Part shown: positions 5,195 to 20,650 of the stretch, piece after piece
Layout: every line of letters starts with the position of its first letter
How positions within the stretch are numbered: the first letter of the stretch is position 1
Assembly: GCF_029894425.1 (NCBI RefSeq)
Contig: NZ_JARXYJ010000001.1
Location: 1,550,001 to 1,614,000, forward strand
Direction: 5' to 3'
From: Streptomyces sp. SAI-127
Lineage (GTDB): Bacteria; Actinomycetota; Actinomycetes; Streptomycetales; Streptomycetaceae
Length of the DNA: 64,000 nt
Translations under genes and position numbers: made by a program
The notes under the pieces: generated by a model
Databases searched by the model: none
Seen by the model: only the letters and a program-made list of their open reading frames with translations
Told to the model about the DNA's origin: nothing

Positions 5195-5818
5195 TCAGCA
5201 GGTGCCTCCCGACCCGCCTTCGTGCTCCGCGCGCACCCGCCCGTCGGTTCCGAGAGCGGGTGCGCCCTGCCAGAAGTACTCCAGTGCCCGTGGCACGTTC
5301 TGTGCGGCGCCCGGTTCGCGGGAGAGAATCTGGACGCCGATGGTGACCGTGAGGACTGTGGCGACGAGGTCCTCGATCGCGACGCCCGGCGCGAGGCTTC
5401 CGTCGCGCCGGGCGTCCTCCAGCTGTCGCAGCAGGAGGGTCACCAGTCGGCGGCGCAGCGTCGGGACGCCGCCTTCGGCGCGGTCGCAGCTGACCTGGAA
5501 GCCGGCTCGTACGACGACGTCCCGGCTCAGCAGTCCGACCAGTTCACGGGTTGTCCCGACCAGGGATGCCATGGCCGGGCCGGACGGGCGTCCGCGGGCG
5601 GCGGCCAGTCCGTCCAGAGCACGCTGCGCCTCCTGCTCCAAGGCGGTGGCCAGCGCGTCCTTGTCGGCAAAGTGGAAGTAGACCGCGCCTTTGGACAGTC
5701 CGGCCTCACCGCTCACCCTGGAGAGAGTCGCGCCCTTGAGACCGTAGCGGTCGACGACGTGAGCCGCCGCCCTCACGATGGCCTCGCGCGAGCGGACGGC
5801 GCGTTGTTGTCGTGGCAC
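5195..5818 (-). CDS. ArpA/ScbR-like TetR regulator, last gene of the Dap operon
   Basis: TetR-family protein of 207 residues whose N-terminus (MPRQQRAVRSREAIVRAAA, then GLSKGAVYFHFADKDALA) matches the gamma-butyrolactone receptor and pseudo-receptor class. The ligand-domain region where true receptors carry a conserved tryptophan has none that I can place; the only tryptophan is near residue 185. It may therefore be a pseudo-receptor that binds the DNA sites without binding butyrolactone. It begins 6 bases after the DMT-type exporter gene and closes the 13-gene operon, suggesting feedback control. A role in sensing the final product is also possible. Confidence 0.85.
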   Translation of the reverse strand: MPRQQRAVRSREAIVRAAAHVVDRYGLKGATLSRVSGEAGLSKGAVYFHFADKDALATALEQEAQRALDGLAAARGRPSGPAMASLVGTTRELVGLLSRDVVVRAGFQVSCDRAEGGVPTLRRRLVTLLLRQLEDARRDGSLAPGVAIEDLVATVLTVTIGVQILSREPGAAQNVPRALEYFWQGAPALGTDGRVRAEHEGGSGGTC

Positions 5819-5824
5819 GGCAGG

Positions 5825-6859
5825 TCAGTCCCCTCTCCCACCGAGCCGCGGGGCTCGCGCGGGCGAGGGCGCCGCCAGCGCGGCTGCGCCGATCAGCAGC
5901 ACCGCCGCGGCCGCGACCGCCCCCTGGTGTGCCGGCGGCTCCCCGAGCAGCGGCCCCAGAGCGAGCGAACCGAGCACCTGACCACTGATCATGCCCAGGC
6001 CCGCGGCCAGGACTCCGATGCGGCGCACGGTCAGTACCGCGGACAGCACCACCACACAGCCGAGCAGGCCGCCGGCGTAGTGCCACAGCGGTCCGGACCG
6101 AGGCCGGGGCAGTTCGGAGGACACCGTCAGCACGACCACGGCGGTGACCATGAGCGCGGTGCCGGTGGCGAAGCTCAGCAGGACCGCCGGGTACGGATGG
6201 TGTCCGGCGGCTTCGTCCACCCGGCCGTTCACCGCCATCTGCCAGGACAGAGCGCAGCCGGCGAGAAACGGCAGGACGGCGAGCGCGAGCGTACGGCCCG
6301 CGTCCGGGGCGGCCAGCACCGGAATCGCCACAGCGCACACGGCGAGCAGCCCGCCCGACAGCCGGCGCCGGGTGGCACGGCGGGGCGTGCCGGGGCCCAG
6401 GCCGAGATGGTCCATGACCACGCCGCTCAGGGTCTGGCCGGCGACCAGCGCCAGAGTGAAGGCGGCGGGCCCGAGCGCGGCGGCGGTCAGCGCCTGCGTC
6501 AGGACCATGCCGCCGCCCGCGAGGCCGCCCAGGCAGTGCCATGGCCGCAGTCCGCGGGAACGCAGCGCCAGGAGCAGTGCGGCGAACGCAGGCCGCAGTC
6601 CTGCCAGGAGGAAGGCGGCCATCGCCGCGACGCCCAGACTGAGCGTGTTCGACCAGGCGGCCGCGGCCACGGCTCCGGTGTGCTCACCGAGCCTGCCGTT
6701 GACCACGGACTCCAGCGCCAGCGCGGCACCGCCGGCGACGGCCCCCGTCAGCGGCAGGGCCCCGGACCGGGCCGGGGCCCGCGGTGGGGCGGGCGGCCCG
6801 GGTGAGGCCGCCGGGCTCACCTCGTGGGTTCGACCGTGCGACGTACGCGACAACGGCAT
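5825..6859 (-). CDS. DMT-type transporter (YdcZ/DUF606-like), putative exporter
   Basis: Integral membrane protein of 344 residues with about ten hydrophobic helices arranged as two similar halves. The repeats begin near GAVAGGAALALESVVNGRLG and LPFLAGCALSWQMAVNGRVD, as in the DMT superfamily (YdcZ/DUF606 duplicated form). The recurring VNGR after helix 1 of each half supports that duplicated family. The ATG at 6859 has GGGAG five bases upstream; the frame is open further upstream but with low-complexity sequence. Its place between the threonine aldolase and the ArpA-like regulator suggests export of the pathway product or an intermediate. Substrate and direction are inferred. Confidence 0.82.
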   Translation of the reverse strand: MPLSRTSHGRTHEVSPAASPGPPAPPRAPARSGALPLTGAVAGGAALALESVVNGRLGEHTGAVAAAAWSNTLSLGVAAMAAFLLAGLRPAFAALLLALRSRGLRPWHCLGGLAGGGMVLTQALTAAALGPAAFTLALVAGQTLSGVVMDHLGLGPGTPRRATRRRLSGGLLAVCAVAIPVLAAPDAGRTLALAVLPFLAGCALSWQMAVNGRVDEAAGHHPYPAVLLSFATGTALMVTAVVVLTVSSELPRPRSGPLWHYAGGLLGCVVVLSAVLTVRRIGVLAAGLGMISGQVLGSLALGPLLGEPPAHQGAVAAAAVLLIGAAALAAPSPARAPRLGGRGD

Positions 6860-6929
6860 GGTTACTCCCGGTGGAGTGGGGCGGCAGTGGCCGCGGGTGG
6901 TGGCGCTCGGGCGCTTCGCGCGCACGCGC

Positions 6930-7970
6930 TCAGCCGGGCGGTGGGAAGGACTCCACCGCCCGCAGGATGTCGGAGCGCGACACATCGCAGTGGGTGATCA
7001 TCCGCACGCCGGTGTCCGTGGGGACCGTGAGTACACCGCGTTCGGCGAGGACGGAGACGGTGCGCGGTGGGTCGTCGACCGGCAGGACAAGGATGTTGGT
7101 CCGTGGGACCCCGGTCTGCCAGCCGCGGTCGGCCAGTCCGGCCGCGAGCAGCCGGGCATGGTCGTGATCCTCGGCGAGGCGGTCGACGCGCTCCAGCGCC
7201 ACGAGGCCGGCTGCCGCCAGTACGCCGCCCTGCCGGACTCCGCCCCCGAGCATCTTGCGGACCCTGCGCGCCTCTCCCACGAACGCCCTGTCGCCCGCAA
7301 GTACCGAACCCACCGGCGCGCCCAGCCCCTTGCTCAGGCAGACCTGGACGGTGTCGGCACCCTCGGCCAGCTCCGCCGGGGTCACACCGAGGGCGACCGC
7401 GGCGTTCCAGATGCGGGCGCCGTCCAGGTGCACCAACAGCCCGGCGGCGTGCGCGGCGTCGGTCAGCCGACGGTGTTCCGGCGGGGTGGTGACGGTGCCG
7501 CCCGCCGCGTTGTGCGTGTTCTCCAGGCACAACAGCCGGTCGCGCAGCGCGAAGTACGGTCCGCCGCGACCGACCGCCCGGGTGATGTCCGCGGGACTGA
7601 TGGCGCCGGGGCCGGCAGTCCAGGCCAGGGCGCGCGGCATGCCGCCGGCCAGCCAGGCGGCGGTGCCGACCTCGTGGTCCAGGATGTGCGCGCGGTCCGG
7701 GGCGAGGAAGCGGTCGCCGCGGTCGAGGTGCACGCACAGCGCGATCAGGTTGCCCATCGACCCGCTGGGCACCCACAGGGCGCCCTCGGTACCGAGGAGG
7801 CCCGCGACCTCCTCCTCCAGCGCGCGCATGGTGGGGTCGCCGTCCAGGACGTCGTCGCCGACCTCGGCACGGGCCATCGCCTCCCGCATCCGTGCGTCGG
7901 GACGGGTGACGGTGTCGGAGCGCAGGTCGACCGGCGGTCCGGTCGGGGGTGGTGTCACGGAAGCCTCCAC
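6930..7970 (-). CDS. Low-specificity threonine aldolase-like PLP enzyme
   Basis: PLP-dependent beta-eliminating lyase of 346 residues. The start DLRSDTVTRPDARMREAM, the GDDVLDGDPT segment, the HLDGARIWNAA region and the Schiff-base lysine in CLSKGLGAPVGS near residue 205 all fit threonine aldolase. The family cleaves beta-hydroxy-alpha-amino acids to glycine plus an aldehyde, or runs in reverse. It lies 15 bases after the MFS gene inside the Dap operon. It could make or cleave a beta-hydroxy amino acid building block, for instance one linked to the oxygenase at 12029. This pathway role is inference; the family call is firm. Confidence 0.9.
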   Translation of the reverse strand: MEASVTPPPTGPPVDLRSDTVTRPDARMREAMARAEVGDDVLDGDPTMRALEEEVAGLLGTEGALWVPSGSMGNLIALCVHLDRGDRFLAPDRAHILDHEVGTAAWLAGGMPRALAWTAGPGAISPADITRAVGRGGPYFALRDRLLCLENTHNAAGGTVTTPPEHRRLTDAAHAAGLLVHLDGARIWNAAVALGVTPAELAEGADTVQVCLSKGLGAPVGSVLAGDRAFVGEARRVRKMLGGGVRQGGVLAAAGLVALERVDRLAEDHDHARLLAAGLADRGWQTGVPRTNILVLPVDDPPRTVSVLAERGVLTVPTDTGVRMITHCDVSRSDILRAVESFPPPG

Positions 7971-7985
7971 GAAAGGAACAGCCGG

Positions 7986-9233
7986 TCACTCGGGCCGTGC
8001 GACGCGGTACCGGGTCATCAACAGGGCAGCCAGGACGCTGAATCCAGCACCGAGGAACATCACCGCGGAAGGCCCGGACGAATCCACGAACCAGCCTCCG
8101 ACCATGGCGCCCAGCGCGATGGAGACGTTGAAGGCACAGATGTACAGCGAGGTCGCGGCCTCGGGGGCCTTGGGGGCGCTGGCGAAGACGAGGGTCTGGA
8201 GGCAGACCGGCAGCGCCGTGTACGCGATGCCCCACACCAGCAGCAGGATCACCGTGCCGGGATGCCACCGGCCGTTGACCACCAGCAGCACGACGGCCGC
8301 GGCGAGCAGCAGGATGCAGGTGAGCGTGGTGGCGCGCAGTGCTCGGGCGGCCGCCGCACCGCCGGCGAAGTTGCCGACGACGCCGGCCACGCCGTACAGG
8401 AGCAGCAGTGCGCTGACCCAGTGGGACGGGATGCCGGCGTCCTGCTCCAGGAAGGGCGCGACATAGGTGTACGCGGCGAAGTGGCCGATCACCATGGCCG
8501 CTGTGACGAGCGTGGCGATCCTGAGGTTGCCGTCCCGCAGCAGCCTGGGCACTTCGGCCAGCCGCACGACGGAACGCGGCGCGAGCGGGGGCAGCAGGAC
8601 GGCCACCGCGGCGAGGATCAGCACACCGATCGCGGCGATGGCCCAGAACGCCGTACGCCAGCCGGACAGTCCGCCGACGAAGGTGCCGAACGGCACGCCG
8701 GCCACCGAGGCGATGGAGATGCCGCTGAAGACGACCGCGGTGGCCCGGACGGACTTCTCCGGCGGCACCAGGCGGATGGCGATGCTCGCCGCGATCGACC
8801 ACATCACGCCGTGGGCGAAGCCCGTCAGCAGCCGTGAGGTCATGAGGATCGCGTACGAGGACGACAGAGCGGTGAAGGCGTTGCCCGCGACGAAGACGGT
8901 GAGCACGACCAGCAGTAGCAGCCGGCGGTCGAAGCGGCGGGTCGCCACCGTGAGCACGGGGGCGAACAGGCCCGCGATGGCACCGTACAGAGTGACCGAG
9001 AGACCGACGGTGCCCTCGGAGACGCCGAGGTCGCCGCTCATGGCGGGGAGCAGTCCGATGGGGACCATCTCCGTGGTGGTGAAGGCGAAGACGCCCATGC
9101 CGACGGCGACGACGGCGAGCCAGCTGCGCAGCGGGCCGAGGAGGGCGGGGGGCGCGGCCTGCCGTTCGGCGCCCTCCGGGGTGGTGTCGGGCACGGCGGC
9201 CGTGTCGTGGCGCGAGGGGGACGAGGGTGTCAC
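7986..9233 (-). CDS. MFS transporter, DHA1 drug-efflux type
   Basis: Twelve-helix major facilitator of 415 residues. Helix 1 carries GVFAFTTTEMVPIGLLPAM, typical of the DHA1/Cmx-AraJ group. A conserved loop 2-3 follows, and SRLLTGFAHGVMWSIAAS fits helix 4. The start is GTG with GGAG six bases upstream. It lies 13 bases after the DUF1116 gene and 15 before the aldolase gene. In this setting it most likely exports the small peptide product and gives self-protection. Dapdiamide-type clusters also carry an efflux protein. Substrate assignment is by context only. Confidence 0.9.
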   Translation of the reverse strand: MTPSSPSRHDTAAVPDTTPEGAERQAAPPALLGPLRSWLAVVAVGMGVFAFTTTEMVPIGLLPAMSGDLGVSEGTVGLSVTLYGAIAGLFAPVLTVATRRFDRRLLLLVVLTVFVAGNAFTALSSSYAILMTSRLLTGFAHGVMWSIAASIAIRLVPPEKSVRATAVVFSGISIASVAGVPFGTFVGGLSGWRTAFWAIAAIGVLILAAVAVLLPPLAPRSVVRLAEVPRLLRDGNLRIATLVTAAMVIGHFAAYTYVAPFLEQDAGIPSHWVSALLLLYGVAGVVGNFAGGAAAARALRATTLTCILLLAAAVVLLVVNGRWHPGTVILLLVWGIAYTALPVCLQTLVFASAPKAPEAATSLYICAFNVSIALGAMVGGWFVDSSGPSAVMFLGAGFSVLAALLMTRYRVARPE

Positions 9234-9246
9234 GGGGATCTCCGGG

Positions 9247-10560
9247 TCAGGCGGATGCGGTGGCGGGCGCGGACGCGGACAGCAGGTCCGCGGCTCGCCG
9301 GAACGGTTCGATCGGGGGAAGGAACAGGACGGCGCCGGCGTGACCGCCGTCGCGCAGCGTCGCGCCGAGGTGGATGGCGGGGACGATGCCGGTGTCGGCG
9401 ACTCGCCGTACGTCGATGCCGCACGGCACGCCGCGGTGGGCGAGGGCGGGAACGCGGTACTCGGGGTGCTCCGCGAGCGTGATCCGGTACATGCGCTCGG
9501 TCAGGCGGATCATTTCCCGGGGGCTCCCGGCGGAGTGGTCCTGGAGGGGCATGGCGGCCGCGGCGGCCATGCCGCCGAGGCCGACCGTCTCCGTGATCAG
9601 GCTCTCGCCGCCGACATACGCCAGATCGTCGGTGGTCAAGCCGTCGTCGAGTCGGCCGCGCAGCGTGGACACCGGCGGGAGCGGAGCGGTGAACCAGCGG
9701 TCGCCGAGACCTGAGACGCGGAGCCCGAACTCCTTCTCGTTGAGGTTCATCGCGGTGACGAGCGTGCTGCCGGGGATGCCGGAAGCACTGTCGGCCGCCG
9801 CCTTGGCGGCCGCCATCACCAGGTGCAGAAACAGGTAGTCGGCCGTGCGCAGGTAAGCGGCCAGCTGCCGGTGGCGCTCGGCGACCCGGTCGCGGGAGAG
9901 ATCCAGTACGGCCTCCAGCAGCGCGGCCCGAAGCAGCGTCCCGGCGGCCCGGTGCCGGCTGTGCAGGTCGTCGCCCATGGCCAGGGCCCGGCGGACGATC
10001 GGGGCGAGGGGAATCCCGCCCAGGTGGTCCAGGACCTCGGCGAGTGCGGGTGACACGACGTCGCAGACGTGCCGCAGTCGGGCGTCGACTCCCTGGTCCC
10101 AGACACCGAAGGTGAGCGAGTTCCGGTCGGCGCCCTCGTTCATACGGCAGAACGCGCGCCGCCCGGATGCCTCGTCCCGCACGACGACCACCGGCATCGA
10201 CGCGGTGCACACGCCGGTGAGCGAGCCGACGGTGGCGTGGTCGTGCGAGGGGCGCACCGCGAGGGTGCCGTCGGCGAGCAGGGCCTCGGCCTCCGCCTCG
10301 TCCCCGGCCAGCCCCTCGTAGAGTGCGGCCCCGATGACGGCCCGCCGTTGACCGCCCTCGTACCCCTGCCAGAGCATCGGCGGTCCGGAGACGAGGATCG
10401 TCCGGGCGGTCATGCCGGGCACCACCTCGCCGGCGGGAGCGATGGTCTCCAGGACCGGGCGGGCCTCGGTGAGACGGGCCACCGCCCGCGCGTTGGCCGC
10501 GTCGCGCGCCGTCGCCACGGTGTCGTGCGGCGCGGGCGCGGCGCCGGGACGGCCGGTCAC
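9247..10560 (-). CDS. DUF1116 (YlbE/AllG-like) protein in a biosynthetic operon
   Basis: Protein of 437 residues matching the DUF1116 family. Recognisable features are an N-terminal start with AANARAVARLTEARPVLE, the segment GPPMLWQGYEGGQRRAV, the mid-region MNEGADRNSLTFGVWD, and a C-terminal GIDVRRVADTGIVPAIHLG. In enterobacteria DUF1116 (AllG) is one subunit of oxamate carbamoyltransferase, together with FdrA/AllF and a DUF2877 protein. Neither partner is in this window, so this copy is an orphan. The GTG start overlaps the ATP-grasp stop (GTGA), implying translational coupling and a joint role. A carbamoyl- or acyl-transfer step is conceivable but unproven. Confidence 0.8.
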   Translation of the reverse strand: MTGRPGAAPAPHDTVATARDAANARAVARLTEARPVLETIAPAGEVVPGMTARTILVSGPPMLWQGYEGGQRRAVIGAALYEGLAGDEAEAEALLADGTLAVRPSHDHATVGSLTGVCTASMPVVVVRDEASGRRAFCRMNEGADRNSLTFGVWDQGVDARLRHVCDVVSPALAEVLDHLGGIPLAPIVRRALAMGDDLHSRHRAAGTLLRAALLEAVLDLSRDRVAERHRQLAAYLRTADYLFLHLVMAAAKAAADSASGIPGSTLVTAMNLNEKEFGLRVSGLGDRWFTAPLPPVSTLRGRLDDGLTTDDLAYVGGESLITETVGLGGMAAAAAMPLQDHSAGSPREMIRLTERMYRITLAEHPEYRVPALAHRGVPCGIDVRRVADTGIVPAIHLGATLRDGGHAGAVLFLPPIEPFRRAADLLSASAPATASA

Positions 10561-11972
10561 CGTACGACCTCCTCGACGGCCTCGGCCCTCCCGGCGCCCT
10601 CACCGGGTCCGACGCTCGCGATCCCCTCGGCTCCCGAGGCCCGCTCGGTGTGGATCGTCACCCTCCGGACGGTCTCGGTTGCCGCGAGGTCGAGGTCGGT
10701 GTCGAGGGGGCCGTCCAGGACCACGGAGACCGAGCGGCCCTGGGAGTCGGACTGGGCGCCGAGCAGGTCGCCGCGGTGCCGGCTCACGAGGACGGCGTGG
10801 CCGCGGGCCGGGGCGTCCGCCGCGACGGGCGGCAGGTCGGGCCACCGGCCCTGTTCGCCGACCCAGTGGACCGGTGCGCCGTCGCAGGTCACGTCCGTCA
10901 GGCGGCCCCGTGGGTGGTCGAGATAGACCTGCCGGGCACGGCGGGCGGCCGGTGCGGTGGCGGGCTCGGTGCCGAGCGCGAGGTCCAGCAGGGCGGCGTC
11001 GAGGTCCATGCCGGTGGCCAGCCGCCACAGGCGGGTGATGGCGTCCCCGGGCGGACGCGCGGCGGCCTCCATCAGCACCACCCGGTCCTCGGCGGTCAGC
11101 CGGAACTCGGCGTGGCTCATGCCGGTCCGGAACCGGACGGCGCGCAGGAAGTCCGCGTTGGCGTCGAGCAGCAGCTTCTCCTGGGCAGGGGTCAGATGCG
11201 GCGCGGGAGAGGTGTGGCCGGTCTCGGTGAAGAACGACGTGCCGGACTCGTTGGTGTCCTTGGCGGTGATGCCGGACCAGAGCAGGCGGCCGTCGCGCAC
11301 CAAGGTCTCCACGGAGAACTCGCGCCCGGTCACGCGTTCCTCCAGCAGGAGCAGTTCACCGGGGCCGTAGTCGGGCAGCAGCGGGAGGACGGCGTCCGGC
11401 CCGGCGACCGCGCGCACGCCCGAACTGGACATCCTGGAGGCGGGTTTGAGGACGGCGGGGAAGGCCGGGAAGTCCGTCACCGTGGTGTGGCGGTCCGGGT
11501 CCACGAGGGTGAAGCGCGGTGCCAGGGCGGGAGCGGTCAGCCGCTGCAGCAGTTTGTTGCGGCAGACCAGGGCGGCATGAGTGCCGGGCCCGGGCAGCCC
11601 CAGGGTCTGGGCGAGGGCTCCGGCGGCCTCCACGAACACCTCCCCTACGTTGAGCACCGCTCGTACCGTGCGGTCGTGCAGCCAGGGCGTGACGGCGCGC
11701 AGCAGGGTGTCGAGCGAGGTGTCCGCGAGGTGCCGGAACTCCTCGTCGGCGAGACGGAAGAGCGGGTGCTCCGGGTCGGCGCGGCGGCGGGCGAGCTCGT
11801 CGGCGGGTGTCTCGGGTCCGAAGACGAACAGCGGTGTCAGTCCGCGTCGTCCGGCCGCGTCCAGCAGGCGCAGGTGCTTGGCGAGCACGACCAGATCGGT
11901 GATGACGATGACGGCGGGCGGGTGCGCGGCGTCCGCTGCGGACGGGGCGCCGCTGTCGCGGAAGTCGGTCAT
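10557..11972 (-). CDS. ATP-grasp ligase, candidate L-amino acid (dipeptide) ligase
   Basis: ATP-dependent carboxylate-amine ligase of 471 residues. The N-terminal pre-ATP-grasp domain ends near residue 125. The lysine in PAVLKPASRMSSSGV near residue 178 and the loop LLLEERVTGREFSVE bind ATP. The Mg-binding end is EFRLTAEDRVVLMEAAARPPGD, close to the BacD/DdaF type that joins free amino acids through acyl phosphates. Its stop overlaps the DUF1116 start by four bases. In the dapdiamide pathway an ATP-grasp enzyme adds the C-terminal amino acid to acylated Dap. I infer the same job here; the amino acid partner is unknown. Confidence 0.86.
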   Translation of the reverse strand: MTDFRDSGAPSAADAAHPPAVIVITDLVVLAKHLRLLDAAGRRGLTPLFVFGPETPADELARRRADPEHPLFRLADEEFRHLADTSLDTLLRAVTPWLHDRTVRAVLNVGEVFVEAAGALAQTLGLPGPGTHAALVCRNKLLQRLTAPALAPRFTLVDPDRHTTVTDFPAFPAVLKPASRMSSSGVRAVAGPDAVLPLLPDYGPGELLLLEERVTGREFSVETLVRDGRLLWSGITAKDTNESGTSFFTETGHTSPAPHLTPAQEKLLLDANADFLRAVRFRTGMSHAEFRLTAEDRVVLMEAAARPPGDAITRLWRLATGMDLDAALLDLALGTEPATAPAARRARQVYLDHPRGRLTDVTCDGAPVHWVGEQGRWPDLPPVAADAPARGHAVLVSRHRGDLLGAQSDSQGRSVSVVLDGPLDTDLDLAATETVRRVTIHTERASGAEGIASVGPGEGAGRAEAVEEVVR

Positions 11973-12028
11973 GGCTTCCCTCGGTCGGGTGCGGGGCGCG
12001 GCCGTGCCGCGCCCCGCACGGTGATGTC

Positions 12029-13027
12029 TCAGGCGGCGAGGCGCTCGGCGGTCACGGTCAGCTCGTGGACCTGGCTGCCCTCACGGGTGCGCAGCACGAC
12101 CCTGGGTTCCGGGCCGTCGGGGAAGACCTGGAGCGTGCGCTCCTCGCTCCAGCCGCTCAGCCGGTACTCGTTGTCGCCGAGGTGCACCAGCGCGAAGACA
12201 CGGTCGCCGGGCAGCCGAAGGGTCATCCGGTCGCCCTCTTCGGCGAGGGTCGCCGTCTCCTGGTGCGCGTCGGCGGACAGCGGTGTGTCGTCCTCCCACA
12301 GGTGGAACGTCGCCGGGACGGGGAAGCGGGTGGCCAGCCGCCGTCGTTCGTCCGCGGTCTGCGGGCACTCCTGGCGGTTGAAGAGCACCTCGCCGTGGCG
12401 GAAGTACTCCTGCCAGGTCTCCGGGAACAGGGCCGCGAGACCGGGGGTGACCAGGACGTCGACGACGAGGTGGACACGGTGCTCGGTGCCGGTGTTCTGG
12501 ACCCGGTGGGTGCGGCTGAAGTCGCCGAACCAGAACTCCCCCGGTTGCCAGCGGTGCTCCACCCCGTCGAGGACGAGCACGGCGCCCGGGTTGGTCACGA
12601 CCGGCACGTGCAGCCGCCCGACGCCCCAGCGCGGCCCGTACTTGGGGTCGGTGTGGTCCATGCCGACGGTGTCGGGGCCGAGCGCCATGAACCGTACGGC
12701 GTGCAGCGGGGCCGGTATGGAGTCCAGCACGTCACGGACGTACGGGATGCGGTCGAGCCACACGGTCTCCTCGAAGTCCCGCGGGCCGGGGCCGCCCGGG
12801 TCCGTGCGGTCGGCGTCGCCGCCGGGGCTGCGCAGGGCCAGGCAGCGCCAGTCGACCTCGGTGGCGGCGCCGACGCCGTCCTCGGTGTAGACGCGCTGCT
12901 GGTCCCAGGTGTGCTCGCGCAGGGAGGTCAGTTCGCGCAGCAGCCGGCCGGCGTCGAAGGAGGGCTCGAGCCGTACGCCCTCGGCGGGCATGGGCGGGGA
13001 GTCGACGAGCGAGGTGGTGGATGACAT
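12029..13027 (-). CDS. Fe(II)/2-oxoglutarate oxygenase, Asp/Asn beta-hydroxylase-like
   Basis: Protein of 332 residues with a cupin core of the aspartyl/asparaginyl hydroxylase family. The iron ligands are the HxD of MDHTDP (about residue 148) and the histidine in FSRTHRV; the arginine in EHRVHLVVDV should hold 2-oxoglutarate. The cluster FWFGDFSRTHRVQNTGTEHR is diagnostic. The ATG at 13027 has AAGGA upstream; a longer open frame has no ribosome site and poor composition. In this operon it could epoxidise or hydroxylate the acyl cap or Dap, or hydroxylate Asp/Asn. The final 100 residues past the oxygenase core are not recognised. The family is clear; the substrate is inferred. Confidence 0.85.
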   Translation of the reverse strand: MSSTTSLVDSPPMPAEGVRLEPSFDAGRLLRELTSLREHTWDQQRVYTEDGVGAATEVDWRCLALRSPGGDADRTDPGGPGPRDFEETVWLDRIPYVRDVLDSIPAPLHAVRFMALGPDTVGMDHTDPKYGPRWGVGRLHVPVVTNPGAVLVLDGVEHRWQPGEFWFGDFSRTHRVQNTGTEHRVHLVVDVLVTPGLAALFPETWQEYFRHGEVLFNRQECPQTADERRRLATRFPVPATFHLWEDDTPLSADAHQETATLAEEGDRMTLRLPGDRVFALVHLGDNEYRLSGWSEERTLQVFPDGPEPRVVLRTREGSQVHELTVTAERLAA

Positions 13028-13101: not shown

Positions 13102-14904
13102 TCAGGCGTGCGCCACGGCGGCCGCCTCGCGGGCCGTGCCGTTCTCCTGGAGGTGGTGCCAGCGTTCGAGCATGTAGAGCGTCCACAGCGCGTAGGTGTG
13201 CTCGGGACGGAACTCGCGGACCGCCGAGCGCAGCGCGTCCGGGCGGAAGTAGCCGCGCTCCAGGGAGGCTTCGGACAGCAGTGTGTCGCTGATGGAGGAG
13301 CGCAGCTCCGCGCCGAGCCAGCTCTCCAGGGGCACCGCCAGCTCCTGCTTGCGGCGCTCCAGGACGGATGCGGGCAGGTAGCGGGCGGCCACGCGCTTGA
13401 GCGGGGCCTTTTCGTTCGCGCCGACCAGTTTCCGGGCCGCGGGGACCCGTGTGACGTAGTCGATGAGCCGGTGGTCGAGCAGGGGGCTCCGGGGCTCGAC
13501 GGAGTGCGCCATCGACATCCGGTCGATCTTCACCAGCTGTGCGTCGGAGAGCCAGAAACGGCTGTCGACCTGCATGGCGCGGTCCAGGTCCGGAACCGAG
13601 GGGTCGGTGCGGTCGAAGCGGGCCCGCAGGTAGTTGTGCGGACGGTCCGGGATCCGGGCCGCGAAGTCGGGCGCGTACAGCCTGTTCTTGAGCGGGTGGG
13701 GCACGCCGTCAGCGAGGACATGCTCGTAGCGGTCGGCGAGTCCGTCATCGCCCGGGAGGTCGCGCAGGCGCTGGTAGCGGCCGTATCCGCAGAAGATCTC
13801 GTCGGATCCGTCGCCGGTAAGCACGACGGTGACGTGCTGCCGGGCCAGCTTGTACATGCATGACGCGGCGATCGCCGAGGGGAAGGCGTAGGGCTCGCCC
13901 ATGTGGGTCAGGATGGTGTCGACGGCCTCCCGCGCGTCCTCGGCGCCGATCCGGTACACGTGGTGCCGGGTGCCGCAGTGCTCGGCCACGGCGCGGGCGT
14001 ACTCCGACTCGTCGAACGCGGCGTGCTCGAACCCGACGGAGAACGTGTGGATCGGCCGGCCCAGCTGCCGGGTGGCCAGGGCGACCACCAGGCTGGAGTC
14101 GAGCCCGCCGCTGAGCATCGCTCCCAGTGGAACCTCCGATTCCAGCCTGTCCTGCACGGCCTGCTGGAGCAACGCGTCGATCCGGTCGTCGATCTCGGCC
14201 TGCGGCACGTCCGTCAGCTCGGCGGTGAAGTCGAACTGCCAGTAGGTGCGGCGGCGTTCGGGGCGGCCCGCTTCAAGGACGAGGACCGTGGCGGGCTCCA
14301 GTTTGCGCACCTGCCGGTAGATGGTGTGCGGTGCGGGCACGACCCGGTAGCTGAGGTACTGGTCGATCGCGACGGGGTCGGTCTCCCGGCCGATCCCCGG
14401 GTGCAGCATCAGCGCGGGCAGTTCGGAGGCGAACGCCACCCCTCCGCCGGCGGGCCGCGCATAGAACAGCGGTTTCTTGCCGACGCGGTCGGTGGCCAGG
14501 ACGAGCCGGTCGCGGCGCGTGTCGTGAACGGCGAGGGCGAACATGCCGTGCAACCGCTCGACGAAGTGCTCGCCGAACTCCTGGTACAGGTGCGGCAGTA
14601 CCTGGGCGTCGCTGCCGCCGCGCACCGGACGGCCGCGGGTGGCGAGCAGGTCCCGCAGTTCCTGGTGGTTGTAGATCTCACCGTTGAGGACGCACACGAC
14701 GGTGCCGTCGTCGCTGAAGACGGGCTGCGAGCCGTCGTGCAGGCCGATGACCTTCAGCCGGCACATCGCCAGGGCTGCCTCGGCGGTGACGAAGGACCCC
14801 GTTTCGTCGGGTCCCCGGTGTGCCATGGCCGCACAGGCGGCCGACGTGTAGGGGGCGTGGACGGGAGCGTGTCCCAGGGACACCGATCCGGCGATTCCGC
14901 ACAC
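13102..14904 (-). CDS. Asparagine synthase-type glutamine amidotransferase
   Basis: Glutamine-hydrolysing amidotransferase of 600 residues. The GTG start puts the catalytic cysteine at position 2 (MCGIAG), the Ntn glutaminase domain runs to about residue 200, and the synthase domain has the PP-loop MLSGGLDSSLVVALA near 260. All residues needed for an active AsnB fold appear present. AAGGAGG lies 8 bases upstream of the GTG, inside the end of the ligase gene, with a 3-base gap. It sits in the Dap cluster next to an acyl-adenylate ligase, which suggests amidation of an acyl-Dap carboxylate such as a fumaroyl group, as DdaH does in dapdiamide assembly. Housekeeping asparagine synthesis is less likely here. 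Confidence 0.88.
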   Translation of the reverse strand: MCGIAGSVSLGHAPVHAPYTSAACAAMAHRGPDETGSFVTAEAALAMCRLKVIGLHDGSQPVFSDDGTVVCVLNGEIYNHQELRDLLATRGRPVRGGSDAQVLPHLYQEFGEHFVERLHGMFALAVHDTRRDRLVLATDRVGKKPLFYARPAGGGVAFASELPALMLHPGIGRETDPVAIDQYLSYRVVPAPHTIYRQVRKLEPATVLVLEAGRPERRRTYWQFDFTAELTDVPQAEIDDRIDALLQQAVQDRLESEVPLGAMLSGGLDSSLVVALATRQLGRPIHTFSVGFEHAAFDESEYARAVAEHCGTRHHVYRIGAEDAREAVDTILTHMGEPYAFPSAIAASCMYKLARQHVTVVLTGDGSDEIFCGYGRYQRLRDLPGDDGLADRYEHVLADGVPHPLKNRLYAPDFAARIPDRPHNYLRARFDRTDPSVPDLDRAMQVDSRFWLSDAQLVKIDRMSMAHSVEPRSPLLDHRLIDYVTRVPAARKLVGANEKAPLKRVAARYLPASVLERRKQELAVPLESWLGAELRSSISDTLLSEASLERGYFRPDALRSAVREFRPEHTYALWTLYMLERWHHLQENGTAREAAAVAHA

Positions 14905-14907
14905 GGG

Positions 14908-16170
14908 TCAGCCCTCCTTGAGGTCGAGACGGCGCTTGGCATGGCCGGAGCGCAGTCCGTCGGGACTGACACCGATCACCCGCACGGGTCCGACGAGACC
15001 CGAGGCGATCATCTGGGCGACGTCGGGGGCCCGCCGGTCGACGGCCGAGCGGATCGCGGCGAGCCGGTCGTGGTCGACGGTGTCGGCCACCACCCGGATG
15101 ACGAGGCCGTCGTCGTCGGCCGCCTCGAACGGGCTGCCCGGGAAGACCTCGGCCATGATCTGGGCCAGGTCGTGGTTGCTGATGCGCTCGCCGTGCTTCA
15201 GGTCACCGGCGAGGCGTCCGTCGATGCGTTCGAACGCGAACACCTCGCGGCCGTCGTGGTGGATGCGGCGCAACCCGGTGACGGCGTCGCCGGTGACGTA
15301 GCGGATCGCCGGGAAGTATCCGCGGGTGAGGGAGGTGAGCAGGAGAGCCCCGCTGCCTTCCTGACGGGAGGGGACCCGGTCGTTCTCGGTGCGGCCGGTC
15401 ACCTCCTCGGGAGGCAGCACCTCGGGAACGATGTGGTCGTGGAAGTGGTAGAGGCCGGTCTGCGCGCACGAGTGGGCGATGGCGCCGATCTCGATGGAGC
15501 CGAACACGTCGAGGACGTCCGCGGGTTCGAGGCCGAACCGGTCCGCCACATGGGCGCGCCAGGCGGGTGGCGCCACATCGCCGACGACCATGATCTTCCG
15601 CGGCCGGATGTCCAGGCCGGGGCGGGCCTGGAGGAGCCGGTCGAGGATCATCGGCATGGTGAAGAACACGTCCGGGCGCCACTCGTTGAGCTTCGCCACG
15701 TGTTCGTCGACGGGCCGCGTGAAGTCGATGTCGTGGGCCTGGAAGCCGAGTTCGAGGAAGACGCGGCGTGCCGAGGCCGCGGCGTGGCCGGTGCCGAGGT
15801 CGGCGACCGCGACGGCGCCGCGCGGCAGGGTCCGGGTGAACTCCCCGAACAACTCCCGTCGTTGGGCCACGTACGCGTCTTCGTCGGCGGGCGAGTAGAG
15901 GATGCGCTTGCGCTGTCCGCCGGAGGTTCCGGACGTGTGGTACACGGAGGCCTCGGGCAGGTGCGGGTGTCCGGCGGTGTAGTAGTGGGCCGCCAGCAGG
16001 TCGGTGCCGATGAGGGGCAGGTCGGCGAGGTTGCCGGAACCGAGGGCGCCGCGGCCCAGGAGGAGATCGCGGTACCAGGGGAAGCGTTGGGCGTGACCGG
16101 CCGCGAGAGCGGCGAGTTCGGCCTCCCGTGCGGGAGTGCGGGTGGCGAGGGCGGTGGCGGTGTGCGGCAT
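14908..16170 (-). CDS. Acyl-adenylate-forming ligase (PaaK-like, ANL superfamily)
   Basis: ANL-superfamily enzyme of 420 residues, about the size of phenylacetate-CoA ligases. It has the phosphate loop YHTSGTSGGQRKR near residue 80, an adenylation core with FGSIEIGAIAHSC, the hinge region ERIDGRLAGDLKHGERIS, and a C-terminal lysine motif SGHAKRRLD. No carrier domain is attached. The ATG at 16170 has AAAGG about ten bases upstream. It lies 41 bases after sbnB and 3 before the amidotransferase. I infer that it activates a small carboxylic acid, fumarate in the closest known pathway (DdaG), and transfers it to the side-chain amine of Dap. Acyl-CoA formation is the alternative. Confidence 0.83.
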   Translation of the reverse strand: MPHTATALATRTPAREAELAALAAGHAQRFPWYRDLLLGRGALGSGNLADLPLIGTDLLAAHYYTAGHPHLPEASVYHTSGTSGGQRKRILYSPADEDAYVAQRRELFGEFTRTLPRGAVAVADLGTGHAAASARRVFLELGFQAHDIDFTRPVDEHVAKLNEWRPDVFFTMPMILDRLLQARPGLDIRPRKIMVVGDVAPPAWRAHVADRFGLEPADVLDVFGSIEIGAIAHSCAQTGLYHFHDHIVPEVLPPEEVTGRTENDRVPSRQEGSGALLLTSLTRGYFPAIRYVTGDAVTGLRRIHHDGREVFAFERIDGRLAGDLKHGERISNHDLAQIMAEVFPGSPFEAADDDGLVIRVVADTVDHDRLAAIRSAVDRRAPDVAQMIASGLVGPVRVIGVSPDGLRSGHAKRRLDLKEG

Positions 16171-16211
16171 CAGGGAGTGCCTTTCGTCGTACGGCGGGGA
16201 GGGCGCGAGTG

Positions 16212-17219
16212 TCAGCTCCAGCGCTGTGTCTCGCCGAAGAAGTCGGGCACACCGACAGCGAGCCCCTTCTCGACGGCCTGCCGGTGGAGGCGCTGTCCCA
16301 CCGCGAGGTCGAGGACACCTAGCCCGAAGGGCGAGAAGATCCGCGGCCGGTCGGCGGCCGGTGCGACCTTGCCGCGCAGCACCTGCGCGAGGGTGCCGTC
16401 GATGAAGTCGCGGTGGCCGAGCCGCTGTTCTGCCAGGTGCGGTGAGGTGTCCGCGGTCAGGCAGTGGTCGACGTCGTCGAGAATGTTCTGCGCGTCGGCG
16501 ACGATCTCCCAGCCGAGGTCGCGCAGTGAGATGTTGAGGACGGTCTGGCCGGGGGCGAAGGTGTCGGCCCGGGTGACCCAGGGCTCCGAGGAGGTGGTGG
16601 CGAAGACGACGAGGTCGGCGTCGGCCGCGGCCCGCTCGAAGGAGTCCTCCTGCTCGGCCCGGTACCCGAGGTCGGTGATGCGCCGGGTGAGGGCGGCGGC
16701 GTAGGAGGCTTCCCGGTCGTGGACGACGAAGCGGTCCACGGACCAGGACTGCGCGGCGAAGAACTCCGCGATGTTGCGTGCGATGACGCCGGCGCCCACC
16801 AGGCATATCCGCTGCGCGGTGCGTCCGCCGGTCAGTTCCTCGGCGCCCAGGACCGCGGACGCGGCGGTGCGGGCGGAGCTGATCTGGGACGCCTCCAGGC
16901 AGGCGAAGGGGTAGCCGGTCTCGTAGTCGTTGAGGAGCAGCGTGGCGGAGGCGCGCGGGATGTTCCGCTCGATGTTGCGGGGGTAGCTCGCGATCCACTT
17001 GATGCCGGACAGGCCGTAGTCGCCGCCCAGATGGGCGGGCAGCGCGATGATGCGGGCGTCCGGCTTCTGCGGGAAGCGCAGGAAGTAGCTGTTCGGGTTG
17101 ACCGAGTCCCCGGCGTCGTGGGTGAGGTAGGCGGAGCGGACCGTCTCGACGATCTCGGGGCGGGAGACGTCGATGAGGGCGCGCAGGGCGGTGCCGCCCA
17201 CCACGTGGAAGTCGAACAT
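16212..17219 (-). CDS. sbnB: 2,3-diaminopropionate biosynthesis protein SbnB
   Basis: NAD-dependent dehydrogenase of 335 residues in the ornithine cyclodeaminase/mu-crystallin family. The start FHVVGGTALRALI, the segment SGIKWIASYPRNIERNIPRA and the dinucleotide motif LVGAGVIARNIAEFF match SbnB. SbnB oxidises N-(1-amino-1-carboxyethyl)-glutamate to release L-2,3-diaminopropionate and 2-oxoglutarate. The ATG at 17219 follows AAGGGA. It lies 51 bases downstream of sbnA, so both Dap enzymes are cotranscribed. This pair defines Dap as a building block of the product. The released 2-oxoglutarate could feed the oxygenase encoded two genes downstream of the ligase. Confidence 0.94.
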   Translation of the reverse strand: MFDFHVVGGTALRALIDVSRPEIVETVRSAYLTHDAGDSVNPNSYFLRFPQKPDARIIALPAHLGGDYGLSGIKWIASYPRNIERNIPRASATLLLNDYETGYPFACLEASQISSARTAASAVLGAEELTGGRTAQRICLVGAGVIARNIAEFFAAQSWSVDRFVVHDREASYAAALTRRITDLGYRAEQEDSFERAAADADLVVFATTSSEPWVTRADTFAPGQTVLNISLRDLGWEIVADAQNILDDVDHCLTADTSPHLAEQRLGHRDFIDGTLAQVLRGKVAPAADRPRIFSPFGLGVLDLAVGQRLHRQAVEKGLAVGVPDFFGETQRWS

Positions 17220-17270
17220 GGGGTTTCCCTTTTCTTGTTGCGTTGTCGGAGCTGGAGTGCCGACGGCCGG

Positions 17271-18251
17271 TCACACGGCGACGGGGTAACTGCCGGAGTC
17301 GTCGAGGACGTCCGCGCCGAAGGTGTCGGCCACCCACAGGTCGTCGTAGATCGTCTTGGCGTAGCGGTCGCCCATGTCGGGCGAGAGGGCCACGACCCGC
17401 GACCCCGCGGGGATCCCGTCGGTGATCGACTCCAGGGCCGCGAGCACGGATCCGGTGGAGCCGCCGAGCGGCAGCCCGTGTTCGCGGGCCAGACGGCGGC
17501 ACATGCGCACGGCGTCGGGCTCGTCGACGAGGACGACCTCGTCGACCTGGTCGGGCCGGCACAGTTCGGGACGGCGGCTGGTGCCGAGGCCGGGGATCTG
17601 GCGTGGGCCGGGCGGACCACCGAAGGTGACCGACCCGGTGGTGTCCACCGCGACGATCCTCGTCCAGGGCGAGAACGCCCGGAAGTGCCGTGTGCAGCCC
17701 ATGAGCGTGCCGGTGGTGCCGGCGCCGACCAGGAGGACGTCGACGTGTCCGATGTTCTTGAGGATCGAGGTGGCGGTCCGGCGGGCGTGTGCCTGTGCGT
17801 TGGCGGGGTTGGCGTACTGGTTGAGCCACACCAGCCCGGGGTCGGCCCCCGTCATCTCACGGATGCGGGCGATACGGGTCCCCAGATAGCCACCGTTGCG
17901 GTCCCGCCGCGTGACCTGGACGACCTCGGCTCCCAGCGCCCGGATGAGGGAAAGGCTCTGGGGGGAGATGTTCGGATCGGTCACGCAGGTGAAGTGGTAG
18001 CCGCGAGCGGCGGCGATGACGGCCAGGGCGATACCGAGGCTGCCGGACGAGGATTCCACCATCCGTCCACCGGGCCGGAGCACACCCCTCTTCTCGGCGT
18101 CCTCCACCATGCCGAGGGCTGACTTGAGCTTCACCGACCCGGCCGGATTCATCCCCTCCAGCTTCAGGAAGAGCCGGCTGTCCGTCAGGACGCCGTCCAG
18201 CTCGAGGAAGACGTCGTCGGTGACGATGTCACAGGCGCGCTGGTAGATCAT
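17271..18251 (-). CDS. sbnA: 2,3-diaminopropionate biosynthesis protein SbnA (PLP synthase)
   Basis: PLP-dependent enzyme of 326 residues in the cysteine synthase family. The lysine in NPAGSVKLKSA near residue 42 carries PLP, ESSSGSLGIALA is the substrate loop, and GAGTTGTLMG binds the phosphate. The family member SbnA condenses O-phospho-L-serine with glutamate to give the precursor that SbnB oxidises to Dap. The ATG overlaps the stop of the M20 peptidase gene by four bases. The phosphoglycerate dehydrogenase at the head of the operon could raise the phosphoserine supply for it. The SbnA/SbnB pairing makes this call more specific than a generic cysteine synthase. Confidence 0.94.
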   Translation of the reverse strand: MIYQRACDIVTDDVFLELDGVLTDSRLFLKLEGMNPAGSVKLKSALGMVEDAEKRGVLRPGGRMVESSSGSLGIALAVIAAARGYHFTCVTDPNISPQSLSLIRALGAEVVQVTRRDRNGGYLGTRIARIREMTGADPGLVWLNQYANPANAQAHARRTATSILKNIGHVDVLLVGAGTTGTLMGCTRHFRAFSPWTRIVAVDTTGSVTFGGPPGPRQIPGLGTSRRPELCRPDQVDEVVLVDEPDAVRMCRRLAREHGLPLGGSTGSVLAALESITDGIPAGSRVVALSPDMGDRYAKTIYDDLWVADTFGADVLDDSGSYPVAV

Positions 18252-19684
18252 CGGTCCTCCTGCTCGCCGGTCGGCGAAGGGACGGGGTCGCCGGCCTCGG
18301 GCGTGTCCTTCCGGAGCGCGGCCAGGCGGCGCAGGAAAAGGACTTCGGCCTGGGCCAGTGAGGCGATCTCACCCGGGTTCACGCTCTCGTCGGTGCCGTG
18401 GATGTTCGACGGCGGGTCCGCGACGCCGCACAGGAGGATCTCCGCGTCGGGGTGGAGCCTCCTGAAGACGGAGCAGACGGCGATGGAACCGCCGGCTCCC
18501 ACCTCGCGGGGCGGTGTTCCGAAGGCGTCCCGCAGGGCGTCGCGGAGCACTGTGTGCGCGGTCCGGCCGGTGTCCGCGCGGAAGGACGGGCCGCTGGTGA
18601 CCCGGCGTATGTCCAGGTGCGCACCCCAGGGGGTGTGGGCCCGCAGATGGGCGGCGAGCGCCTCATGGGTGTGCAGGACGTCCGAGCCGGGCGGGGTGCG
18701 CACGCTGACCAGTGCCTTCGCCGAGGGCCGGAGAGCGGGTACGGCATCGTCGAGCGACGGCGACTGGACGGCGAGGACGGTGACGGCGGGCAGCCGCCAC
18801 AGCCGGTCGGCGACGGAGCCGGTACCTATGAGTTCGACGCCGTCCAGGACTCCGGCGTCCGCGCGGAAGTCGGCTTCGCTGTACTCCGCCTGGTCCTGGC
18901 GGGCGTCGCACCCGGCCTGGTCGGTGTCCACGGCGGGCAGGCAGGGTGTGCCGCGGTGGTCGTGCAGCGTGGCCAGGAGACGGATGAGGGCGGTCATCGC
19001 ATCGGGTGCGGGTCCGCCGAACTGACCCGAGTGCAGGGTCCTGGACAGGGTGGAGAGCGTGATCTCCACGACGGCCATGCCGCGCAGGGAAGTGGTCAGG
19101 GTCGGAATGCCCGGGGCGGCGTTACCCGTGTCGGCGATGACGACCGCGTCAGGTGCCACAAGCCCGGGGTGCGCGCGCAGCACCTTCTCCAGGCTTCCTT
19201 CGCCGGGTTCCTCGCTCCCGTCGACCAGGACCGTGATGTCGAGGTCGGGGTAGGGCTCGTGGGGCAGGGCCTCCTGGAGGGCGCGCAGCGCCGTGAGGTG
19301 CGTGACGACGTTGCCCTTGCAGTCCGCGCTGCCGCGGCCGTACCACCGTCCGTCGCGTTCGGTCAGTGCGAACGGCGGTGTGCGCCAGACCGTCTCGTCC
19401 TGGGCCGAGACGACGTCGTAGTGGGCGTAGAGAACCACGGAGGGTGCGCCGGGCGGGCCGGGGCGGCGGGCGTGGACGGTCTCGGTACCGTCGTCGGCGG
19501 GCAGCAGCCGGATCTCGGGAAGGCCGGCTTCGGCGAGCAGATCGGCGATGGTGCGGGCCGCTCGGGGGAAGTGGTCCGGCGGCGCGGCTCCGACGACGGT
19601 GCGCAGGGCGACCAGTTCGGCGAGGTCGTCGCGGGCTCTGGTCATCAGGGCGGGGGTGATCGCTGCTGAGAGTGGGGCAGGCAT
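18248..19684 (-). CDS. M20 family zinc metallopeptidase (dipeptidase-like)
   Basis: Cytoplasmic metallohydrolase of 478 residues. The metal site residues are in YAHYDVVSA (H and D), GRGSADCKGN (D), the catalytic EE pair in DGSEEPGEGS, IADTGN (D) and a late histidine in NIHGTDESVNPGE. The lid domain lies around residues 210-350. I prefer the ATG at 19684, which has GGAG upstream. It is second in the Dap operon, overlapping sbnA by four bases. An M20 dipeptidase beside dipeptide-forming enzymes could remove a protecting residue, recycle failed products or inactivate the product inside the producer. Which one is not decidable from sequence. Confidence 0.9.
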   Translation of the reverse strand: MPAPLSAAITPALMTRARDDLAELVALRTVVGAAPPDHFPRAARTIADLLAEAGLPEIRLLPADDGTETVHARRPGPPGAPSVVLYAHYDVVSAQDETVWRTPPFALTERDGRWYGRGSADCKGNVVTHLTALRALQEALPHEPYPDLDITVLVDGSEEPGEGSLEKVLRAHPGLVAPDAVVIADTGNAAPGIPTLTTSLRGMAVVEITLSTLSRTLHSGQFGGPAPDAMTALIRLLATLHDHRGTPCLPAVDTDQAGCDARQDQAEYSEADFRADAGVLDGVELIGTGSVADRLWRLPAVTVLAVQSPSLDDAVPALRPSAKALVSVRTPPGSDVLHTHEALAAHLRAHTPWGAHLDIRRVTSGPSFRADTGRTAHTVLRDALRDAFGTPPREVGAGGSIAVCSVFRRLHPDAEILLCGVADPPSNIHGTDESVNPGEIASLAQAEVLFLRRLAALRKDTPEAGDPVPSPTGEQEDR

Positions 19685-19714
19685 GGTGGGTCTCCGGCGT
19701 GCGGGTGGCACCGC

Positions 19715-20650
19715 TCAGACGGCGGTGGGTGCGGGGACGGCGACCGGGGTCAGTTCCGCGAGGACCTTGCGGACGACCTCCTGTCCTGCCCGCAGCTGTG
19801 CGTCGTGGGTGCTCGCGCCGAGGTGCGGGACGGCCACCACGTTCGGCAGGGCCAACAGGGGTGAGGTGCCGGGTGGTTCGGTGGCGAAGACGTCCAGTGC
19901 GGCACCGGCGAGCCGGCCGTCGCGCAGTGCCCGGTGCAGGGCCGTCTCGTCGACGATGCCGCCCCGGGCGGCGTTGACCAGATGTGCGGTGGGTTTCATC
20001 AGGGACAGCTCCCGGGCGCCGATGAGTCCTGCGGTCCGGGGGGTTTTGGGCAGGTGCAGGGTGACGACGTCGCTCGCGGTGAGCAGTTCGTCGAGGCCCG
20101 TGGGGTGCACGTCGTCGCCGAGGGTGTCCGCGTAGGGGTCGTGCACGAGGATGTGCATGTCGAAGGCGGCCAGCCGGCGCGCGACCTGCCTGCCGACGCG
20201 GCCGTAGCCGACGATGCCGAGGGTGCGGCCGGCGAGTTCGACGCCGGTGAGTTCTGTGCGACGCCACTCGCCGTTCGCGAGGGAGCGCACCCCGGCGTTG
20301 AGGTGGCGCACCGAGGCGACGATCAGTGCCACGGTGAGTTCGGCGACGCTCACGGTGTTGGAGTCCGGGGCGTTGAGCACGGTGATGCCGCGGGCCCTGG
20401 CGGTGTCGGTGTCGATGTTGTCGAGGCCGACGCCGGCGCGTGCGACGACACGCAGGCCGGGCGCCCGGTCCAGGACTTCCGCGTCGACCCGGGTGCCGCT
20501 GCGCACGATCAGGGCGTCCGCGTCGGGCAGCGCGGCGAACAGCGCCGGGCGGTCACGGCCGTCGACGTGCCGGACGTCGCAGACGGCCCTCAGGGCGGCG
20601 ATGCTGTCGCCGGGCAGTACGTCGCTCACGATCACGACCGGTGCGGGCAC
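19715..20650 (-). CDS. D-3-phosphoglycerate dehydrogenase-like enzyme (SerA without ACT domain)
   Basis: D-2-hydroxyacid dehydrogenase of 311 residues. The NAD motif is GIVGYGRVGRQVARR, and the catalytic Arg, Glu and His lie in NAARGGIVDE, FATEPP and PHLGASTHDA. VVARAGVGLDNID and the PHLGAST block favour phosphoglycerate dehydrogenase. The roughly 200-residue C-terminal ASB/ACT region of housekeeping actinobacterial SerA is absent, so serine feedback control should be lost. It opens the operon, with a GTG start and AAGGAGAG just upstream. It most likely pushes flux toward O-phosphoserine for SbnA. Two ARE-like sites lie directly upstream, so this is probably where the operon is switched on. 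Confidence 0.88.
   Translation of the reverse strand: MPAPVVIVSDVLPGDSIAALRAVCDVRHVDGRDRPALFAALPDADALIVRSGTRVDAEVLDRAPGLRVVARAGVGLDNIDTDTARARGITVLNAPDSNTVSVAELTVALIVASVRHLNAGVRSLANGEWRRTELTGVELAGRTLGIVGYGRVGRQVARRLAAFDMHILVHDPYADTLGDDVHPTGLDELLTASDVVTLHLPKTPRTAGLIGARELSLMKPTAHLVNAARGGIVDETALHRALRDGRLAGAALDVFATEPPGTSPLLALPNVVAVPHLGASTHDAQLRAGQEVVRKVLAELTPVAVPAPTAV

Follow-up and report, generated by a model that had tools for sequence, protein, structure and literature searches.

The 64-kb window analyzed here, positions 1550001 to 1614000 of contig C1 in the 10.72-Mb genome (three contigs) of Streptomyces sp. SAI-127, carries a block of 13 genes that probably constitutes a butyrolactone-controlled cluster, free of nonribosomal peptide synthetases (NRPSs), for a small peptide antimetabolite built on N-beta-fumaramoyl-L-2,3-diaminopropionate (FCDP). 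The most likely product would be a hydroxylated dipeptide of fumaramoyl-2,3-diaminopropionate (fumaramoyl-Dap), probably an antibiotic that shares its warhead with the dapdiamides. An excerpt of PMC9272926 names FCDP as the N-terminal residue of A19009 and as an inactivator of glucosamine-6-phosphate synthase, and one of PMC12568646 credits DdaG and DdaF with building the dapdiamide scaffold. This reading draws on the enzyme families encoded in the block and their intact motifs, on a conserved four-gene cassette followed by an exchangeable ligase, and on the co-occurrence of the AllG and GntG genes. All 13 open reading frames (ORFs) lie on the minus strand and run, 5' to 3', from position 20650 down to 5195:

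19715..20650, minus strand: 3-phosphoglycerate dehydrogenase (PGDH)-like 2-hydroxyacid dehydrogenase, 311 aa (TIGR01327, 348.2 bits; cut-off 454 not reached)
18248..19711, minus strand: M20-family peptidase, PRK07907 subfamily (NF005914, 522.2 bits; cut-off 300)
17271..18251, minus strand: SbnA, pyridoxal phosphate (PLP) enzyme of Dap synthesis (TIGR03945, 399.9 bits; cut-off 349.95)
16212..17219, minus strand: SbnB, dehydrogenase of Dap synthesis (TIGR03944, 398.7 bits; cut-off 326.9)
14908..16170, minus strand: DdaG-like acyl-adenylate ligase, 420 aa (NF041596, 338.8 bits; PF27279 on relatives)
13102..14904, minus strand: DdaH-like glutamine amidotransferase, AsnB type (TIGR01536, 424.8 bits; cut-off 267.1)
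12029..13027, minus strand: Fe(II)/2-oxoglutarate (2OG) oxygenase of the Asp/Asn-hydroxylase fold, 332 aa (PF05118, E 1.4e-15)
10557..11972, minus strand: ATP-grasp amide ligase, 471 aa (PF13535)
9247..10560, minus strand: AllG-like protein (PF06545, E 3.1e-62; 3clq, E 4.1e-70)
7986..9233, minus strand: major facilitator superfamily (MFS) exporter, sugar-efflux/Cmx-like (PF07690)
6930..7970, minus strand: PLP aldolase of the GntG/threonine-aldolase family (NF041359, 357 bits; cut-off 230)
5825..6985, minus strand: YdcZ-type drug/metabolite transporter (DMT) family exporter, its start probably internal to the ORF (PF04657, E 1.8e-37)
5195..5818, minus strand: TetR-family regulator, ScbR-like, of the butyrolactone receptor type (NF041196, 147.4 bits; cut-off 150)

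An initial annotation, made from the letters of this DNA, had described 13 tightly packed same-strand genes without an NRPS, and this description holds: every ORF is present, none contains an internal stop according to the ORF list and translations, and families could be assigned by profile search. Intergenic distances range from -56 to +74 bases, where the -56 value arises because YdcZ was given its longest possible ORF, although translation probably begins further in; the ligase corresponds to the final 420 codons of a longer ORF. No PF00501 match listed for this genome falls inside the window, which therefore contains no NRPS adenylation domain. The profile searches also uphold the supply of Dap by SbnA and SbnB, which is firm since both exceed their equivalog cut-offs, and the Asp/Asn-hydroxylase type of the oxygenase. 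The four extra enzymes mentioned in that annotation are the PGDH-like enzyme, the M20 peptidase, the AllG-like protein, and the GntG-type aldolase. The MFS protein scores 270.9 bits on NF002921 and 236.9 bits on NF033135, below the respective cut-offs of 401 and 400. A promoter and terminator scan and a tandem-repeat search returned nothing useful.

Conservation of the core was assessed through relatives of the ligase (7996 candidates were scored, 158 passed at E ≤ 0.001, and the best 120 of these are listed) and through 60 loci, with one genome per species. The genes for SbnA, SbnB, the ligase, and the AsnB-type amidotransferase are adjacent and in the same order in ten actinobacterial loci (the window, L001-L007, L088, and L089). 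The Rhodococcus locus L004 keeps ten of the genes in order and strand at 43-65% protein identity, and the arrangement is therefore not due to chance. L090 (genome G264), in which SbnA lies beside the ligase and the locus is broken by a contig end, was excluded from all counts, and L063 (G093) was not counted separately from L002. The same four genes occur on the dapdiamide side in L008, L009, L011, L012, L015, L018, and L155 (Pantoea vagans plasmid pPag2), in most cases with further genes between SbnB and the ligase; L010 gave no SbnB match, L013 no AsnB match, and L014 neither an SbnA nor an SbnB match. SbnA also adjoins the ligase in 44 loci, mostly of Paenibacillus (L016-L060 minus L018), none of which yielded an AsnB match and four of which yielded no SbnB. 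These AsnB-less loci likely specify a different Dap amide.

The ligase is rare: of 392 Streptomyces genomes, 5 gave a match, our own counted, and a sample of 394 genomes from the class, which partly overlaps the first set, had a single positive, again our own genome. In two of the five Streptomyces (G000, G068) the cluster includes both the window-type oxygenase and the ATP-grasp enzyme, G093 has the ATP-grasp enzyme without the oxygenase, G098 is of the NRPS type, and G264 is the genome interrupted by a contig end. The Burkholderia glumae and Pseudomonas carassii relatives were not found in a plasmid search or in 390 genomes of one proteobacterial order, a search that had no positive control. 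The ligase and oxygenase of P. carassii are both listed with longest contig 64486, which suggests that they are linked.

The match of the window ligase to the DdaG model NF041596 spans almost the full model and falls short of the equivalog cut-off of 700 bits, whereas the reference DdaG proteins of Pantoea, Xenorhabdus (L009), and Acinetobacter (L015) score 813.5, 739.2, and 812.7 bits; by sequence, the protein is thus a DdaG homolog rather than an equivalog. In a quick tree, in which L013 and L018 sit on long branches, the actinobacterial sequences form one 22-row group (SH-aLRT 98) that also takes in P. carassii and B. glumae and is separate from the DdaG group; the placement of the ligase with DdaG and not with housekeeping enzymes, as initially proposed, is supported. 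Six DdaG-clade ligases share 189 invariant positions, of which all ten actinobacterial ligases retain 95. R104 and R315 (window numbering) occur in all ten actinobacterial and all six DdaG-clade ligases and in none of the eight aligned Paenibacillus and Cohnella ligases from AsnB-less loci, a pattern that was seen after the fact and would be expected if these residues held the second carboxylate of fumarate.

We consider it unlikely that the ligase uses another small acid or diacid and so yields a Dap amide other than fumaramoyl-Dap. The protein is only 42% identical to DdaG of Pantoea vagans, with 339 bits against a cut-off of 700, and the 44 Paenibacillus-side loci, with a ligase of the same family beside SbnA and no AsnB found, indicate that this ligase family is not tied to an amidotransferase; however, the ligase of each of the ten actinobacterial loci has as its neighbor an amidotransferase, which groups with DdaH, and the charged positions of the ligase are largely kept, 23 of 37 being present in all ten.

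The amidotransferase itself begins with MCGIAG and carries the SGGLDSS motif. Its identity to Pantoea DdaH is 44% (498 bits), compared with 35% and 33% (291 and 244 bits) for the two full-length paralogs of its own genome, and a tree places it with DdaH and apart from these paralogs (SH-aLRT 98), in agreement with the earlier assignment to DdaH rather than to housekeeping enzymes. This paralog control is small, and the rows of the tree test were chosen by adjacency to a ligase. No DdaH-specific model was among the matches of Pantoea DdaH.

The ATP-grasp enzyme, which had been taken as the counterpart of DdaF, has to be reassigned. It gives no match to the DdaF model NF041595, on which the true DdaF proteins of L009 and L015 score 889 and 859 bits, and it is 22-26% identical to four DdaF proteins. 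The eight actinobacterial ATP-grasp proteins form one clade (100/99) and DdaF another, in a tree for which the tool warns of long branches between the two. We therefore reject the DdaF identity and conclude that the peptide-bond step was recruited separately. The position downstream of the cassette is occupied by DdaF in the dda loci, by the actinobacterial ATP-grasp enzyme in the window, L001-L004, L006, L007, and L088, and by an NRPS with condensation, adenylation, thiolation, and thioesterase domains (C-A-T-TE) in L005 and L089, the latter also with a TauD oxygenase; the step that follows the cassette is exchangeable.

Two Streptomyces clusters encode two different peptide ligases each. After the MFS gene, L001 (17013-18287) and L088 (16455-17732) carry a DdaF-like ligase that is 46-48% identical to the four DdaF proteins; the two copies share 86% identity, and that of L088 scores 491.6 bits, against a cut-off of 840 for the DdaF model. 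The presence of both ligases suggests that they form different bonds. In the Kitasatospora mediocidica locus (L003:2735-7690), a FemAB-like protein is encoded between the oxygenase and the ATP-grasp enzyme, on the strand opposite the cassette.

In the oxygenase, H125-x-D127...H174, which we take to be the iron ligands, and R184, presumably the 2OG-binding residue, are intact, and they are invariant in 38 of 38 aligned sequences and in 7 of 7 cluster copies. The window-type enzyme occurs in seven of the ten actinobacterial loci, including both that have lost AllG and GntG. Its predicted structure (pLDDT 91.7) has its best fold matches in Cpz10 and hydroxylases of free proline, an ATP-grasp gene lies nearby in 13 of the 18 other loci with oxygenase relatives that were read, and close relatives adjoin ATP-grasp ligases in two other cluster types. 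A close relative is found in several Streptomyces (L134-L138, L165) in a preQ0/deazaguanine cluster with FolE, QueD, QueE, QueC, a methyltransferase, two oxygenases, BTAD regulators, and an ATP-grasp protein. Other Streptomyces (L139-L146, L166) have a compact cluster of P450, PreATP-grasp, oxygenase relative, annotated glycine amidinotransferase, ATP-grasp, and aminoglycoside-phosphotransferase-like genes, whose product is possibly a guanidino peptide.

It appears very improbable that this oxygenase takes over the role of DdaC, with no carrier protein involved, by hydroxylating or epoxidizing the fumaramoyl group. Such a role would agree with its being the sole oxygenase of the cluster, a place taken by a TauD-type enzyme in the Pantoea dda cluster and in L089. 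However, PF05118 is a different oxygenase family from that of DdaC, the nearest solved relatives hydroxylate a peptidyl nucleoside and proline, and close relatives stand in clusters where no fumaramoyl-Dap genes were found; in addition, a computational study (PMC12451424) reports that tethering of the substrate is of advantage to DdaC.

The window, L004, L006, and L007 have intact AllG and GntG genes; the other six loci have no intact copy of either within the stretches compared, which for L005 and L089 cover just ~2-3 kb past the NRPS gene. L001 and L088 retain only a remnant of AllG, with tblastn matches over 40 and 122 residues, and the GntG and YdcZ genes were not found in these two stretches. 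The AllG family (PF06545) is shared with E. coli AllFGH, whose oxamic transcarbamylase is stated in an excerpt of PMC11326118 to need AllF, AllG, and AllH together; in contrast, AllF was found neither near the cluster AllG genes nor elsewhere in our genome, with a query that does detect it next to AllG in 17 of 20 other Streptomyces cases. Ten AllF-linked AllG proteins have 138 invariant positions in common, and 71 of these are retained by 11 or more of the 12 cluster-clade rows, for four of which the context is known. Because AllF was not found, the invariant positions are partly lost, and the E. coli enzyme needs all three proteins, the name oxamate carbamoyltransferase cannot be transferred, and this candidate function was rejected. 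L091 (G236:C62) provides a second context for an AllF-free AllG-like gene, 52% identical to that of the window, with a purine/allantoin-type permease and a malic enzyme as neighbors and a carbon-nitrogen hydrolase one gene away.

The GntG-type aldolase is placed in its family by its match to NF041359, and PMC10367076 describes the guanitoxin enzyme GntG as a retro-aldolase. A bolder proposal, which we regard as quite doubtful, would make the two proteins a new tailoring pair: by analogy with the conversion of oxamate to oxalurate, the orphan AllG would carbamoylate a primary amide (for example, fumaramide to an acyl-urea warhead), GntG would make or trim a beta-hydroxy partner, the modified warhead would be one not seen in dapdiamides or A19009, and the DdaF-like ligase would replace both in L001 and L088, giving a longer peptide.

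The same losses bear on a simpler explanation, namely an A19009-type pathway to fumaramoyl-Dap-Ala in which the oxygenase, AllG, and GntG have side roles such as recycling or detoxification and leave the product unmarked. We judge this unlikely. The core genes are those needed for such a dipeptide, A19009 is itself a Streptomyces dipeptide that carries FCDP at its N-terminus, and AllG, GntG, and the YdcZ exporter are jointly missing in L001 and L088. Nevertheless, these two loci are among the seven whose oxygenase motif is intact, and L002, of Streptomyces sp. WAC 01529, encodes PGDH, SbnA, SbnB, ligase, AsnB, ATP-grasp, and MFS proteins with no oxygenase, AllG, or aldolase, which is nearer to what A19009 needs. 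The initial annotation had offered an A19009-type pathway or a new variant; the new variant is favored, and A19009 fits L002 better than the window.

We accordingly retain the hydroxylated fumaramoyl-Dap dipeptide as the expected product, with the following route. The PGDH-like enzyme would feed serine phosphate metabolism, SbnA and SbnB would make Dap, the DdaG-like ligase would join fumarate to the Dap beta-amine, and the DdaH-like amidotransferase would turn the free carboxylate into an amide to give FCDP, which the actinobacterial ATP-grasp enzyme would join to an amino acid; the ligase, amidotransferase, and ATP-grasp steps are modeled on dapdiamide biochemistry. More tentatively, as for butyrolactone control and the final product, the oxygenase may add a hydroxyl, most likely at the beta position, to the partner amino acid or the dipeptide, and AllG and GntG may work together as an optional sub-module whose probable task is to make, trim, or recycle a beta-hydroxy amino acid, before the MFS and YdcZ proteins would export the product.

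Several points weigh against this route. The acid could differ from fumarate, given that the ligase shares 42% identity with DdaG and scores below half of the equivalog cut-off. The choice of substrate and amino acid by the ATP-grasp enzyme is carried over from dapdiamide biochemistry, and the product is a prediction from the gene content. AllG is dispensable in L001 and L088, where only its remnant is left, and NF041359 is a broad subfamily that presumably also covers ordinary threonine aldolases. Five of the 18 oxygenase loci read show no ATP-grasp gene. The cluster contains no GlmS copy, two full GlmS genes being located elsewhere in the genome, and self-resistance through an in-cluster GlmS was rejected.

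The PGDH-like protein covers just positions 1-302 of the 525-position model TIGR01327 and is a probable supplier of the serine or O-phosphoserine precursor; its gene is also present in L002, L003, L006, and L007, with fragments in L088. The M20 peptidase gene, among the ten loci compared, is found only in the window, L001, L006, L007, and L088, and may serve in processing or self-protection. Just upstream of the block (20851-23557) and outside the cluster lie ScbA and ScbR of a gamma-butyrolactone system and a reductase:

20851..21828, minus strand: NAD-dependent reductase/epimerase beside ScbA (PF01370), probably acting in butyrolactone synthesis
21777..22790, minus strand: ScbA/AfsA gamma-butyrolactone synthase (NF041195, 322.9 bits; cut-off 200)
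22922..23557, plus strand, divergent: ScbR-type autoregulator receptor (NF041196, 215 bits; cut-off 150)

The ScbA-reductase pair occupies the equivalent place in L006 and L007, and because it keeps this place, butyrolactone control of the cluster appears likely.

The pathway class is known, and the combination of genes in the window is likely new as far as the titles and abstracts searched in the open-licence literature show; that search found no description of the cluster and no gene cluster for A19009. Novelty of the class in actinobacteria is countered by a table in PMC5676828 that labels an Actinoalloteichus NRPS cluster 'Dapdiamide'; in the part of PMC10157215 consulted, 'dapdiamide' is applied to an argH gene only. 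With A19009, the Streptomyces collinus dipeptide, the window shares the expected FCDP warhead, the dipeptide logic, and a Streptomyces host, whereas its oxygenase, AllG, and GntG would be superfluous for A19009. The oxygenase has the fold and the HxD...H motif in common with Cpz10, the caprazamycin beta-hydroxylase that acts on a peptidyl nucleoside, and with L-proline cis-hydroxylases, but at ~20-26% identity in structural alignments and with an extra C-terminal part. The cluster points to an Asp/Asn-hydroxylase-fold subfamily that accompanies ATP-grasp peptide ligases in three cluster types, and to a use of AllG-like proteins away from AllF, their known partner.

The dapdiamide (dda) cluster of Pantoea vagans C9-1 plasmid pPag2, together with its Xenorhabdus and Acinetobacter counterparts, shares SbnA, SbnB, a DdaG-type ligase, a DdaH-type amidotransferase, and an ATP-grasp enzyme for the second amide. 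Unlike it, the window is without DdaC, DdaD, DdaE, and DdaF, and a test for the epoxide branch (DdaC, DdaD) found neither a TauD oxygenase encoded in the cluster nor any adenylation domain within the window; its ATP-grasp enzyme is of another lineage, and it adds the PF05118 oxygenase, AllG-like, GntG-type, PGDH, and M20 proteins and the butyrolactone system. The dda loci of Xenorhabdus kozodoii (L012) and Acinetobacter rudis (L015) have no DdaC- or DdaD-sized genes between SbnB and DdaF and therefore probably make the fumaramoyl form only. The NRPS versions in L005 and L089 share the SbnA-SbnB-ligase-AsnB cassette with the window, but have an NRPS of C-A-T-TE architecture, with a TauD oxygenase in L089, in place of the ATP-grasp enzyme and PF05118 oxygenase. 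Taken across these systems, the four-gene fumaramoyl-Dap cassette is a portable unit that has been combined in evolution with various oxygenases and with various enzymes for peptide ligation, namely DdaF, a second lineage of ATP-grasp proteins, or an NRPS.

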